Origin: an uncultured delta proteobacterium
GTDB lineage: Bacteria > Myxococcota_A > UBA9160 > JAFDET01
Assembly: GCA_947259215.1 (NCBI GenBank)
Contig: CAMYLJ010000010.1
Span: forward strand, 165,967 to 213,631
DNA length: 47,665 bases
Direction: 5' to 3'
The notes under the pieces are model-generated. The model was not told the DNA's origin. It searched no databases and saw only the letters and a program-made list of their open reading frames with translations. The first letter of the stretch is position 1. The number at the start of each line of letters is the position of its first letter. The position numbers and the translations under genes were made by a program. Shown one piece after another: positions 4,450 through 31,997 of this stretch.

Positions 4450-5483
4450 AAGAGCGGGATCTCCCCGTCGTCGACGCGTCCGAGCAGCTTCTGGATGCGC
4501 TTCCAGACGTCATCGACCTCGCCGCGGGTGAGCCCGAACTGCACCACGCCGTCCCGCTCGGCGAGTCCCTTGTCCGGCTCCAGGGGCGGTCCGGGCTCCG
4601 CGTCCCGGTAGTTTCCCTTGCCGTCGTCTTCGAGCTGCTGGGCCACCAGCAGAGAATCTAGCTCCTGCCGCGAGAGCGCCCGCAGGCGCTCCACGGATTG
4701 CTTGCGGAGCGCGGCCACCCGCAGCACGTGCCAGTTGGGGACGAAGTAGTTCTGGACGGGGCCGGGTTGGAAGGAGATCCCGTTGTCGATGGCGAAGACC
4801 TGGCGCCGCGCGTCGTCCTTCGACACCAGGATGTTGCCGTCCCGGCCGTCCTTGTGCTCGATCAGGTAGGTCAGCAGATTGAAGTCGGCCAGGTAGCGGG
4901 CGTAGACGGGATCCCGAACGAAGCGATCGCGATCGTAGACCGCCTGCGGCACCGTGACGTTCTCGAGCCACAGGGCCGCCATGACGAGGATGCACTCGGC
5001 GCCCACGACCTGGGGATCGGTCCAGCCCATGTGCCGGGTGTAGACCTCGAAGGGCGGGCAGCGGACGAGGGTCGTCGGGACCACGTAGTCCTCGGGGTCG
5101 AGGAAGAGCTTCTGGAGCGCGTAGGCCGCGATCTCCTTGCGCGGCGAGTTGTTGTAGCCGCCCAGGTCGGGGGGGACGATCTTGCCCTTGAAGGCGATGG
5201 TGCGGTCGATCTCCTCGAAGTCGAGCTCGATCTTGACGGCACCGCTGGTACCGGCCGCCGTGCGTTTCATGACCCGCACGTCGTACTGGGGCCCCTTCAT
5301 CAGGGCCTCGGCTTCGTCGGGCGGGATGGGCCAGTTCGGGAAGGGGTCGCCCGGCACGGTCGACGGGGCGGCCTCGAACTGGACGGGTTCGAAGCCCCGG
5401 GGGCCTCGGTGGCCCGTACAGGCCGTCCCCAGTACGACCCCCGCCAGGGCCGCGAACAGGGCGGGATTCTTCAGCCGCACCAT
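4446..5483 (-). CDS. Kinase-fold-like predicted lipoprotein
   Basis: The 345-residue product has a lipobox (VVLGTAC, Cys22). Its core resembles the atypical kinase superfamily (PI3/4-kinase, HipA, Fam20 relatives): a lysine region FKGKI (about 98-102), an early acidic helix residue in RKEIAAYAL (E117), a catalytic-loop-like HKDGRDGN (200-207) and a metal-binding IDNGISF (222-228). The catalytic histidine of DxHxxN kinases is not obvious, so the activity is uncertain. An exported kinase would need an extracytoplasmic phosphate donor, as in eukaryotic Fam20 proteins. The ATG at 5483 is preceded by GAAGG at short spacing; GTG at 5480 is equally possible. It is coupled to the phosphatase downstream. 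The family call is an inference from motifs. Confidence 0.6.
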   Translation of the reverse strand: MVRLKNPALFAALAGVVLGTACTGHRGPRGFEPVQFEAAPSTVPGDPFPNWPIPPDEAEALMKGPQYDVRVMKRTAAGTSGAVKIELDFEEIDRTIAFKGKIVPPDLGGYNNSPRKEIAAYALQKLFLDPEDYVVPTTLVRCPPFEVYTRHMGWTDPQVVGAECILVMAALWLENVTVPQAVYDRDRFVRDPVYARYLADFNLLTYLIEHKDGRDGNILVSKDDARRQVFAIDNGISFQPGPVQNYFVPNWHVLRVAALRKQSVERLRALSRQELDSLLVAQQLEDDGKGNYRDAEPGPPLEPDKGLAERDGVVQFGLTRGEVDDVWKRIQKLLGRVDDGEIPLF

Positions 5484-5658
5484 GGCCTTCGGTCTAGTGG
5501 AAACGAGGCGTGGGCGCCAGCGTGCCGTGACGGGTGCGCCCCCGCGGCATCGGACCCGAAGCGCTCCGCCGGGTCTGGCCGACGGGGTAGCGCTTGTGGC
5601 ATCAAGGAGTGCCGGGCCGCCGCCCCGCTCGCCCGATCGCCGATGGAGCACCCACGAG

Positions 5659-7275
5659 ATGAACAAGGTCCGGGTGGCCACCCTCTCCGAGCTGGATCCG
5701 TCGCGCCCCGCCCACGCGCTGGTGGCGAACGTCGACCTGGTGATCGTCCGCTGGCCGGACGCCGAGGAGGTGTCCGTGCTCTACGGGCGCTGTCTGCACC
5801 GCGGCGCCCTGCTCTCCGACGGCGAGGTTCGCGGCGAGGACCTGATCTGCGGCGTACACGGCTGGGACTACCGCTTCCGCACGGGGGTTTCGGCCTACAC
5901 GAACGCGGAGGTCCTGCACAAGTTCGGCCACTGGATCGAGGACGGCGAAGTCCTGGTGGACGAGGACGAGGTCCGCGCGTGGGAACGCAGCCACCCGCAG
6001 CCCTACGACCGCGACGCCTACCAGGGCGCGTACGCCGATCCCCACGGCACCCCCGACGAGCCGTTCAACCACTGGATCCAGGAGATGGCCGAGCACGGGC
6101 TCGAGCGCGCCGGGCACCACGGGCGGGTGAACGCCATGGGGGTGCCCCGGGCCGAGCTCCCCGGCTGGGACGACATCCAGATCCTGACCGCCCAGCTGCA
6201 GCGGGTGCCGCTGCTGGACGACGCGGAGGTCGGGAGCGATCTCGTCATCGGGCCGAACGCCGCGCGGCCGCTGCGCCTGGAGATCCCGCTCTTCGTCTCG
6301 GACATGAGCTTCGGCGCACTGTCCGAGGAGGCGAAGGTGGCCCTGGCCCAGGGGGCCGAGGCCGCGGGCACGGGCATCTGCTCCGGCGAGGGCGGGATGC
6401 TGCCCGAGGAGCAGTCCGAGAACAGCCGCTACTTCTACGAGCTGGCGTCGGCGCGCTTCGGCTTCGAGATGGACCTGCTGAAGAAGGTGCAGGCTTTCCA
6501 CTTCAAGTGCGGGCAGGGCGCCAAGACGGGCACCGGCGGGCACCTGCCCGGCCACAAGGTGAAGGGCAAGATCGCCGCGGTCCGGGGGCTGCCGGAGGGG
6601 ACCGCCGCCATCTCCCCCGCGCGCTTTCCGGACTGGGAGCACGTGGACGACTTCCGCCGCTTCGGCGACCAGGTGCGCCAGGCCACCGGCGGGATCCCGA
6701 TCGGCTTCAAGCTCTCGGCCCAGCACGTGGAGCGCGACCTCGACGCGGCCCTCGACGCCGGCGCCGACTACGTGATCCTCGATGGCCGCGGCGGCGGCAC
6801 CGGCGCCGCGCCGCTGATCTTTCGCAACAACATCAGCGTGCCGACGATCCCGGCCCTGGCCCGGGCGCGCCGGCACCTGGACGGGCTTGGGCGCAGCGAC
6901 GTCACCTTGATCGTCACGGGCGGGCTGCGGGTGCCCTCGGACTTCGTGAAGGCGCTGGCCCTGGGGGCCGACGGCGTCGCGCTCTCCAACTCCGCCATCC
7001 AGGCCATCGGCTGCCTCGGCATGCGCGCCTGCCACACCAACAACTGCCCGGTGGGGATCGCGACCCAGCGGCCCGAGCTGCGCGCGCGCCTGGACGTGGC
7101 GTTGGCTGCCAAGCGCCTGGCGCGCTTCCTGGGCAGCGCCACCGAGCTGATGCGGGTGCTGGCGCGCGCCTGCGGCCACAGCCACCTCAACCAGTTCTCG
7201 CCGGACGACCTCGTCACCTGGAAGCGCGACATGCACCACCTGACGGGCATCGCCTACGCCGGGGTGCGCTCGTGA
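5659..7275 (+). CDS. Rieske domain fused to glutamate-synthase-type FMN/3Fe-4S oxidoreductase
   Basis: Residues 1-110 form a Rieske [2Fe-2S] domain (C45-x-H47 and C64-x-x-H67). Residues from about 150 to 538 match the FMN-binding synthase domain of glutamate synthase large subunit, including the barrel region ILDGRGGGTGAAP and the 3Fe-4S motif C452-x5-C458-x4-C463 followed by PVGIATQ. The glutamine amidotransferase and C-terminal beta-helix domains of true GltB are absent, as in the related GlxD and methylglutamate synthase subunits. It should therefore be an FMN oxidoreductase that takes electrons through the Rieske centre rather than from GltD. The product is unknown. It heads an operon with a second Rieske fusion; the next gene overlaps it by GTGA. 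Confidence 0.85.
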   Translation: MNKVRVATLSELDPSRPAHALVANVDLVIVRWPDAEEVSVLYGRCLHRGALLSDGEVRGEDLICGVHGWDYRFRTGVSAYTNAEVLHKFGHWIEDGEVLVDEDEVRAWERSHPQPYDRDAYQGAYADPHGTPDEPFNHWIQEMAEHGLERAGHHGRVNAMGVPRAELPGWDDIQILTAQLQRVPLLDDAEVGSDLVIGPNAARPLRLEIPLFVSDMSFGALSEEAKVALAQGAEAAGTGICSGEGGMLPEEQSENSRYFYELASARFGFEMDLLKKVQAFHFKCGQGAKTGTGGHLPGHKVKGKIAAVRGLPEGTAAISPARFPDWEHVDDFRRFGDQVRQATGGIPIGFKLSAQHVERDLDAALDAGADYVILDGRGGGTGAAPLIFRNNISVPTIPALARARRHLDGLGRSDVTLIVTGGLRVPSDFVKALALGADGVALSNSAIQAIGCLGMRACHTNNCPVGIATQRPELRARLDVALAAKRLARFLGSATELMRVLARACGHSHLNQFSPDDLVTWKRDMHHLTGIAYAGVRS

Positions 7276-29967: not shown

Positions 29968-30439
29968 GGCACATTCTAGACCCTGGGGACGGGCGGCCGC
30001 CGCCGTCCTGTTCGCGTCCCTGGTCGTGGGAGGTGGCTGCATGAGCACCCAAGGTCGGCCCGACGGGCTCGGGCCTCGCGATGGGCGGCTGGCGCCCCTG
30101 CCCTCGAGCCCCAACGCCGTCTCGAGCCAGAGCGAGGACGCATCGCGGCGCGTCAAGCCGCTGGCCTTCGCCGGAGATCCCGCCGCCGCCCTGGCGAGGC
30201 TGCGCCGGGTGGTGGAGGCGATGCCGCGCACCCGGGTCGTGACCGCCGAGCCCTCCTACCTGCACGTCGAGTTCACGAGCCGGTTCTTCCGCTTCGTGGA
30301 CGACGTGGAGTTCCTGGTGGACGCGGAGACCTCGCAGATCCAGGTGCGCTCCGCGTCCCGGGTCGGCTACTCGGATCTCGGGGCCAACCGCGCTCGGGTC
30401 GAGGCCATCCGGGAGGCGTTCGTGGCCGATGGAGCGTGA
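29966..30439 (+). CDS. DUF1499 family lipoprotein
   Basis: 157 residues with a lipobox (SLVVGGGC, Cys25) and a full DUF1499 domain: SPNAVSSQSEDASRRVKPL, PSYLHVEFTSRFFRFVDDVE and SASRVGYSDLGANRARVEAI. The family has no known activity; plant and bacterial members occur in membranes. The ATG at 29966 has an AGGAGGAG ribosome site seven bases upstream that itself lies in the SixA-like coding region, and its start codon overlaps that of the divergent SixA-like gene. The next gene starts before its stop (11-base overlap), so it leads a small operon. Confidence 0.85.
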   Translation: MAHSRPWGRAAAAVLFASLVVGGGCMSTQGRPDGLGPRDGRLAPLPSSPNAVSSQSEDASRRVKPLAFAGDPAAALARLRRVVEAMPRTRVVTAEPSYLHVEFTSRFFRFVDDVEFLVDAETSQIQVRSASRVGYSDLGANRARVEAIREAFVADGA

Positions 30440-30761
30440 GCCGGCGACGCCGGTCGAGCGCCGGGAGACTCCGCGCCAGGCGCTGGAGCGCCACCTGGCG
30501 CGCGACGCATTCACGCCCCGCGAGCTGGCGGGGCTGCTGGGCCTGCCGGAGCGCGACGTGGTGGACCACCTGGAGCACCTGGAGCGCAGCCTGCGGCGCT
30601 CCGGCCGCCGACTGCTGGTGGAGCCCGCGCGCTGCCGCGCCTGCGGCTACGTCTTCGAGCGACGCCGGCGGCTCGGGCGGCCGAGCGGCTGTCCGGACTG
30701 CCGCAAGCGCCGGATCGAGCCGCCCCGCTACCGCATCCAGGACCGCGGCGGCCCGGACTGA
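30429..30761 (+). CDS. HTH/zinc-ribbon transcriptional regulator
   Basis: 110 residues: an N-terminal winged-helix-like segment (FTPRELAGLLGLPERDVVDHLEHLERSL, about 28-55) and a C-terminal zinc ribbon with C69-x2-C72 and C88-x2-C91. This matches the COG3357-type predicted regulators that fuse an HTH to a zinc ribbon and are best known from archaea. It should bind DNA, with zinc holding the C-terminal part. It overlaps the DUF1499 gene by 11 bases and precedes the selenoprotein gene by 39 bases, so either could be its target. No operator is identified. Confidence 0.8.
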   Translation: MEREPATPVERRETPRQALERHLARDAFTPRELAGLLGLPERDVVDHLEHLERSLRRSGRRLLVEPARCRACGYVFERRRRLGRPSGCPDCRKRRIEPPRYRIQDRGGPD

Positions 30762-30800: not shown

Positions 30801-31997
30801 ATGAGCGACTCCGCGATCGACTACGTCTCCGCTCCGGTTCCCGTATGCGCGGACCTGCCGGCCGCTCATCGCCGGGGCTGGGACCACCTGGCGCGGCCCG
30901 GCCGCTGGTGGACGGGCGCGGAGCGCGTGGCCATCGCGACCGAGGTGCGGGCGGCGGCTGCCTGTCCGCTCTGCCACGAGCGCAAACAGGCGCTCTCGCC
31001 GAACGCCGTGACCGGCACGCATGCCGGTCCGGGCGTGCTTCCGCCGGCGGCGGTGGAAGCGGTCCACCGCATCACGACGGATCCGGGGCGGCTCTCCCGC
31101 GGCTGGCTCGACGGGCTCGAGGCCGACGGCCTCTCGGACGGCCACTACGTGGAGCTGGTGGGCGTCGTCACGACCGTCGTCAGCATCGACAGCTTCTGCC
31201 GCGGGCTCGGTGTGCCGCTCCACGCGCTGCCGGAGCCCGAGCCCGGCGAGCCGTCCCGCGCGCGCCCGGACGGGCTGGTGGACGGCGGCGCCTGGGTTCC
31301 CATGACGGCGGGCCGCTTCGGGAACGTGCTGCGCGCCATGTCGCTGGTGCCCGAGGAGGTGAGCAACCTGATGGTGCTCTCCCGGGCGCACTACCTGGCG
31401 CCCGAAGAGATGGCCGACATCGAGCGCGGGCGGGGCGCCCTCGACCGGGCCCAGGTGGAGCTCGTGGCCGCGCGCGTCTCGGCCCTGCGCGAGTGCTTCT
31501 ACTGAACCAGCTCCCACTCCCTGCTGCTCCGGGTGAGCGGCGAGACCAGCGGCCGCGACTACGGGCTCGCAGCCATCGTGGACGGCAAGGCGGCCCACGC
31601 CAGCGGGATCGACCACGCCGAAGAGCTGGTGACCCTGGCCGAGGCGATGGTGGGCAGCGACGACGCCGCGCTCGCGAGCGCCCGGCAGGGCCTGCGGGAC
31701 GCCATGGGGGCCGAGGCGCTGGTGGACGCGGCGGCCGTGGCGTCGAACTTCGAGCGCATGGTTCGCATCGCCGACGCCACGGGCATCCCGCTCGACCCCC
31801 CGGTGAACGCCATGACGGCCGACATCCAGGAGGAGCTCGGGCTGACCGCGTTCGCGGCCAAATCGCAGACGCCGGACGCGGGTCGCCTGGCCCGCGCCGC
31901 CGGTCCGCTGCTGCGGCGCATCTCCCCGCGCCTGATGCGCGCGCTGGCGCCGCGGCTCCAGCGCCTGATAGGCGCGCCGCCGGAACCCCGGGTCTGA
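30801..31997 (+). CDS. AhpD/carboxymuconolactone-decarboxylase-like selenoprotein (TGA read as Sec)
   Basis: An in-frame TGA at 31503-31505 splits one continuous protein-like frame; read as selenocysteine it gives 398 residues. The first half has a peroxidase-like CPLCH motif (C55, C58, H59). The TGA falls in C232-F-Y-U235-T-S-S-H239, exactly where AhpD-fold proteins carry CxxC...H, so Sec replaces the second redox cysteine. The part after TGA stays in the same frame and keeps helix-rich sequence (GIDHAEELVTLAEAMVG, NFERMVRIADATGIPLDPPV). A SECIS-like hairpin follows the TGA by 17 bases. Expected role: thiol/selenol peroxidase or disulfide reductase. A single nonsense mutation is the alternative. 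Selenocysteine-making genes are not in the window. Confidence 0.8.
31523..31541 (+). promoter_or_regulatory. SECIS-like hairpin for selenocysteine insertion
   Basis: GCUGCUC pairs with GAGCGGC (seven pairs, one a G-U) around a CGGGU loop, 17 bases after the UGA. A short upper stem with G and U in the apical loop, at this distance inside the coding region, fits the bacterial SECIS bound by SelB. Confidence 0.65.

Follow-up and report, generated by a model that had tools for sequence, protein, structure and literature searches.

The window, i.e. the whole 47,665-nucleotide stretch of DNA that was analysed, carries on its forward strand a reading frame that extends from an ATG at position 30801 to a TGA stop at 31995-31997. 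According to its translation, the frame is single and its sole break is a TGA at 31503-31505, which corresponds to codon 235 and is followed in the same frame by 163 residues and the stop. The features assigned to the locus are the following:

30801-31997, forward strand: predicted selenoprotein gene of 398 residues with TGA 235 read as selenocysteine (Sec), based on translation, NF041238 match and AlphaFold2 model
30801-31280, forward strand: N-terminal half, a degenerate AhpD-fold domain according to an AlphaFold2 model of this half alone (pLDDT 94.5) and its structure matches
30963-30977, forward strand: accessory N-terminal motif C55-P-L-C58-H59, found in a clade of 36 alignment rows and absent from 25 of 61
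31284-31829, forward strand: C-terminal half (residues about 162-343), a catalytic AhpD-fold domain with AhpD-family Z scores of 10-13 and a CMD Pfam match
31458-31517, forward strand: AhpD catalytic set E220 - C232-F-Y-U235-T-x2-H239, all invariant in 61 homologues and spaced as in Mycobacterium tuberculosis AhpD
31503-31505, forward strand: in-frame TGA, codon 235 (U235)
31522-31542, forward strand: SECIS-like hairpin of 7-8 pairs with the loop CGGGU at 31530-31534, based on homologue offset, synonymous shuffles, slid controls and codon constraint

The sequence-only reading had described the same coordinates, frame, motif and hairpin position, all of which hold upon re-reading of the sequence. 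It had also predicted that an automatic annotation would split the gene; indeed, ORF calling breaks it at the TGA, and a GTG at 31533 opens a second ORF of 154 codons. A PF0610-like winged-helix/zinc-ribbon regulator (30429-30761, forward strand) ends 39 bases 5' of the selenoprotein start on the same strand; no such regulator was found next to other family copies among those examined. A promoter and terminator scan around the gene returned nothing.

In the local sequence E220 ... E231-C232-F-Y-U235-T-S-S-H239, C232 is encoded at 31494-31496 and H239 at 31515-31517, and U235 occupies the second redox position. The read-through protein matches the NCBIfam model NF041238 ('AhpD_rel_CFYUT, alkylhydroperoxidase-related (seleno)protein', level equivalog) with 464.3 bits against a curated cut-off of 175 (E 3e-139), covering residues 17-352 and model positions 3-356 of 357. 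The CFYU/CT motif of the family is present as CFYUT at residues 232-236, and all 38 aligned homologues likewise match NF041238. The AhpD core domain model TIGR00778 recognises the protein with 32.1 bits (cut-off 27.8), the C-terminal half has a Pfam CMD match above the cut-off, and the proton-relay residues that mark AhpD-family members along with the core domain (E, C, C/U and H) are found as the invariant E220, C232, U235 and H239. Overall, the gene very probably encodes a Sec-containing AhpD-type redox enzyme of family NF041238.

Our survey of homologues comprised 379 genomes of the window's phylum and 400 from the phylum to which a Chloroflexota relative belongs, 779 altogether. The family occurs above the cut-off in 57 of the former, where the copies listed above the cut-off hold exactly one in-frame TGA each, and in three of the latter, each time as a tandem pair in which either copy has a single TGA. 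Among named genomes, a scan revealed one Myxococcota-labelled MAG and several Chloroflexota, the latter mostly with tandem pairs. The codon aligned to position 235 is TGA in 64/64 copies extracted from the window's phylum and the Chloroflexota, and E220, C232, F233, Y234, U235, T236 and H239 are invariant in the 61 long rows of the alignment. Two fragments (in G094 and G358) that appeared to be exceptions to the TGA were rejected as broken genes. Two copies of the family gene (L080, L081) are disrupted by a frameshift, deletion or TAG and are apparently pseudogenes. The placement of the TGA at the second redox position of an AhpD-type CxxU is thus borne out by the 64 homologous copies and the NF041238 match, and the proposed coding beyond it by a downstream frame that is intact and conserved in the homologues.

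In one respect the alignment turned out differently from what had been anticipated on the basis of the sequence, namely Cys at residue 235. Cys forms are absent among the copies listed above the cut-off in the 779 genomes of the two phyla, a search of PLSDB plasmids for Cys homologues gave no match, and every homologue found has TGA. This universal TGA is stronger evidence for Sec than the expected alignment with Cys would have been. It should be noted that Sec-only use holds only for the genomes searched here, because a 2005 paper on the Sargasso Sea counts some Cys homologues of its 'hypothetical protein 1' (PMC1088965), which belongs to this family. A nonsense mutation or sequencing error splitting an ordinary Cys-type AhpD gene would yield the interrupted frame and the split by ORF callers, the only observations in its favour. 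Since the identical TGA recurs in all homologues read, in many genomes of two phyla and with a conserved downstream frame, we consider this explanation refuted and its probability practically negligible; the conserved hairpin and the full Sec machinery of the genome, described below, also speak against it.

Bacterial selenoprotein genes are expected to have a hairpin just downstream of the UGA, with a G close to where its small loop begins. Judged from sequence and predicted structure, such an element is present here: a seven-pair stem (31523-31529/31535-31541), to which an eighth U-G pair may be added, begins 17 bases after the TGA, and its C-G-G-G-U loop starts 24 nt 3' of the TGA. The SECIS hairpin proposed from the window is supported by comparative evidence. 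A hairpin with a five-base loop and a stem of 5-9 pairs lies at the same offset in 61/63 homologues. The mean hairpin score is 17.2, compared with 10.25 +/- 0.72 (sd; maximum 12.1) for 200 shuffles among synonymous codons, which leave the protein unaltered, and at eight pairs 445 of 488 cells are paired versus 264 at most in controls with a slid partner. Changes also occur in pairs, for example from CTG...GGC to ATG...ATC, which replaces both amino acids at once.

Codon usage points in the same direction. The Leu codon that closes the stem ahead of the loop is CTC in all 61 sequences, versus 42% elsewhere; the loop Arg codon is CGT or CGG but never CGC (0/51), versus 56% CGC elsewhere; and the Ala codon that follows is GCG in 34/34, versus 37% elsewhere, bearing in mind that these statistics count related sequences as independent and naive probabilities are therefore too small. 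This codon pattern is not explained by the protein, and the SECIS of the family appears to constrain codon and even amino-acid choice. Folding of the single sequence (46 nt) was not significant and preferred another structure (-15.1 kcal/mol, z -0.78). No Rfam family backs the hairpin, because a scan of the window at the gathering thresholds gave no match. A role of the hairpin in guiding Sec decoding of UGA 235 is strongly supported by the sequence comparisons.

The genome from which the window derives (5.7 Mb, 96% complete) was searched for selA, selB, selD and tRNA-Sec, as the sequence-only reading had suggested, and all four are present. The tRNA-Sec scores 73.7 bits and has the anticodon TCA, genes for SelA and SelB are found, and the SelD gene (contig C5, L015:1501-2427, forward strand) itself has an in-frame TGA near the N-terminus (GGUARKL), which is its usual Sec form. 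SelA occurs in 56/57 carrier genomes of the family versus 182/322 non-carriers (compared by Fisher test), and the only carrier without a SelA match (G187, 85% complete) has tRNA-Sec. The same genome holds a second NF041238 copy (contig C23, L063:8517-9632, reverse strand), which is 49% identical and has its own TGA and SECIS-like hairpin. Four peroxiredoxin/thioredoxin-like genes have TGA at the active-site Cys, with the motifs TPGU, TPTU, TPGU and WUPPC (L089-L092; contigs C14, C9, C11 and C17). The organism thus has a broad redox selenoproteome.

One could also imagine that the UGA terminates by design and that two polypeptides, residues 1-234 and a product from about 31533, assemble without Sec, with the GTG that opens the 154-codon ORF serving as the second start. 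However, such a split would run through the AhpD active-site helix and separate C232 from H239, both invariant in the homologues, and would leave residues 235-239 untranslated despite the invariant T236 and H239, in a genome that has a complete Sec system. We regard this arrangement as very improbable. Judged from the sequence comparisons, the gene is almost certainly a true selenoprotein gene in which UGA 235 is decoded as Sec.

The initial designation of the product as a 'new-style AhpD-like selenoprotein' stands only in part. It is an AhpD-like selenoprotein; it is not new-style, because the family was discovered in Sargasso Sea data as early as 2005 and is listed in a 2026 review, and NF041238 is itself named for CFYUT. 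The 2005 paper described 'hypothetical protein 1' with a predicted SECIS and as to function did not go beyond a possible redox role (PMC1088965), whereas the review's entry for NF041238 gives CxxU and the name 'AhpD-related protein (hypothetical protein 1, Sargasso Sea metagenome)' (PMC13188914). Common to these and the window protein are the CFYUT motif, the CxxU, a predicted SECIS downstream and the match over nearly the whole model. Compared with the model, the window copy has the N-terminal CxxC in addition and is extended at the C-terminus by a tail of about 45 residues; both are ordinary within its clade. The family is thus already known, and the window protein is a well-supported member rather than a new kind.

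AlphaFold2 modelling of the read-through protein with 38 homologues (pLDDT 95.1, pTM 0.94) gave two successive six-helix sets. Because internal duplication of the N- and C-terminal halves is weak when tested from sequence alone (hhalign P 0.012), the structure of each half was needed. The 13 best structure matches of the N-terminal half alone are all AhpD/CMD proteins (Z 6.8-8.6), and the next, unrelated rows are below 3. The C-terminal half resembles M. tuberculosis AhpD (1gu9, 1knc) in fold, with a Z of 10.6, and in the E-(x11)-C-x2-C/U-x3-H spacing; M. tuberculosis AhpD differs in that its chain has a single catalytic domain, with Cys where the window protein has Sec, and the identity is only 11%. 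Human Sestrin2 superposes on both halves of the model (Z 17.3, 237 residues, 3.3 A). Based on the predicted model, it is highly likely that two AhpD domains are joined in one chain and arranged as in Sestrin2 and the AhpD dimer; the protein is probably an AhpD pseudo-dimer fused into one polypeptide, of which a single selenol site is functional.

Sestrin2 has been described as a fused AhpD-like dimer with the catalytic Cys in the N-terminal half (PMC4674687), and bacterial fused dimers are known with catalytic cysteines only in the C-terminal half (PMC11429811). Human Sestrin2 (5dj4, 5t0n) and the bacterial sestrin-like fused AhpD dimers share with the window protein two AhpD folds per chain, of which one is catalytic and the other degenerate. 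In Sestrin2, however, catalysis resides in the N-terminal half, which has a single Cys, whereas the catalytic half of the window protein is C-terminal and has CxxU. The fused proteins of Corynebacterium and Comamonas (PMC11429811) have a C-terminal catalytic half as here, but with Cys instead of Sec. The model shows the sestrin arrangement of two AhpD folds in one chain; a Pfam scan at E up to 10 gave CMD and a weak zinc-finger match only. Since there is no sestrin-family sequence match, we do not file the protein as a sestrin despite its sestrin-like fold, and the leucine/GATOR2 function of Sestrin2 is not implied. A bolder proposal, which we consider unlikely, is that NF041238 proteins are bacterial selenium counterparts of sestrins, in which an obligate Sec site of the C-terminal half would act as the peroxidase and the N-terminal, degenerate half would sense a ligand or relay electrons. 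If true, NF041238 would be a two-faced stress-response enzyme, its N-terminal half bearing a clade-specific CxxC.

The latter motif deserves separate consideration. The 36/61 rows with the N-terminal CxxC constitute one side of a branch with 97/97 support; neither the Chloroflexota pairs nor four short paralogues have the motif. In the N-terminal half of the window copy, Lys occupies the position that corresponds to the catalytic His. The notion that the protein combines a thiol site with a selenol site is literally correct for the window copy, where CPLCH is real, but does not extend to the family. As it is missing from 25 of the 61 homologues and lacks the AhpD histidine, the N-terminal CxxC is accessory rather than family-defining, and CPLCH is best regarded as an accessory thiol pair that is specific to one clade and lies in an AhpD half that has degenerated.

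For M. tuberculosis AhpD, the catalytic residues are C130/C133, E118, H132 and H137 (PMC3141380). Their counterparts in the window protein are C232, U235, E220, Y234 and H239. By analogy, thiol/selenol redox catalysis is likely. Decoding of UGA 235 as Sec by the host selA/selB/selD/tRNA-Sec system, guided by the hairpin 17 nt downstream, is strongly supported by comparison. In the proposed mechanism, U235 would substitute for the second of the two active-site cysteines of AhpD (Cys133 in M. tuberculosis) and be activated by E220, Y234 and H239, and its selenolate would attack either the disulfide of a partner or an organic hydroperoxide, probably a hydrophobic one. C232 would then close a selenenyl-sulfide bond with U235, and a cellular dithiol would restore the site. 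The N-terminal half, having presumably lost its catalytic histidine, would act as the scaffold half of the pseudo-dimer, and the CxxC of those copies that have one may serve as a thiol pair for resolving or relay.

Reduction of hydrophobic peroxides or disulfides is the most likely function. Direct peroxide reduction has about an even chance. Sestrin2 reduces cumene hydroperoxide directly and prefers hydrophobic peroxides (PMC4674687), which may be taken as a hint, and only a hint, to hydrophobic peroxides here. On the other hand, M. tuberculosis AhpD is an adaptor to AhpC (PMC3141380), and the window protein could similarly reduce a peroxiredoxin or another protein disulfide instead of peroxides. 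A lipoamide dehydrogenase above the cut-off and several peroxiredoxin-like selenoproteins in the genome are compatible with such a role. An AhpC-type partner is uncertain, however, because no gene of this genome exceeds the AhpC cut-off; no peroxiredoxin gene is linked, and Sestrin2, the closest full-length fold, acts on cumene hydroperoxide directly. An adaptor role is possible, though we give it clearly less weight than direct peroxide reduction.

Gene neighbours do not settle the function. Most Chloroflexota copies form a tandem pair beside genes for CoA-transferase III, enoyl-CoA hydratase and riboflavin synthesis (L051-L061, around 4860-7060), and two copies from the window's order have genes for enoyl-CoA hydratase, SDR and DsbA-like proteins in their vicinity. 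These surroundings, together with the debrominase Bmp8, which has the same fold, would fit a selenoenzyme of acyl-CoA or steroid/lipid breakdown (a decarboxylase, dehalogenase or isomerase built on the CMD fold) and not an antioxidant enzyme. Yet the window copy and the second copy of its genome have other neighbours than these, and the complete AhpD proton-relay set is invariant, so we rate a role in lipid breakdown as rather improbable. For the window copy, neighbour analysis revealed no conserved operon partner, no clear pathway and no adjacent peroxiredoxin gene.

Reading of the raw sequence can thus bring to light a genuine UGA-recoded gene, which ORF callers break in two. To a poorly studied family it adds Sec-only use in the copies seen here, the SECIS constraint and the predicted two-domain, sestrin-like architecture; the last may suggest how the family works, and none of these additions makes it a new kind of system. 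The AhpD-like 1 (COG2128) and AhpD-like 2 (pfam02627) selenoproteins (PMC2398784) and the TIGR01926/TIGR00778 proteins also have the AhpD core with CxxU at the active site, but have only one AhpD domain, about 180-200 residues long (TIGR01926 model, 178), and no second, N-terminal domain. Other AhpD-like selenoprotein genes outside NF041238, in which xxxH follows CFYU, CLYU, CSYU, CHYU or CEFU, are common in the window's phylum.
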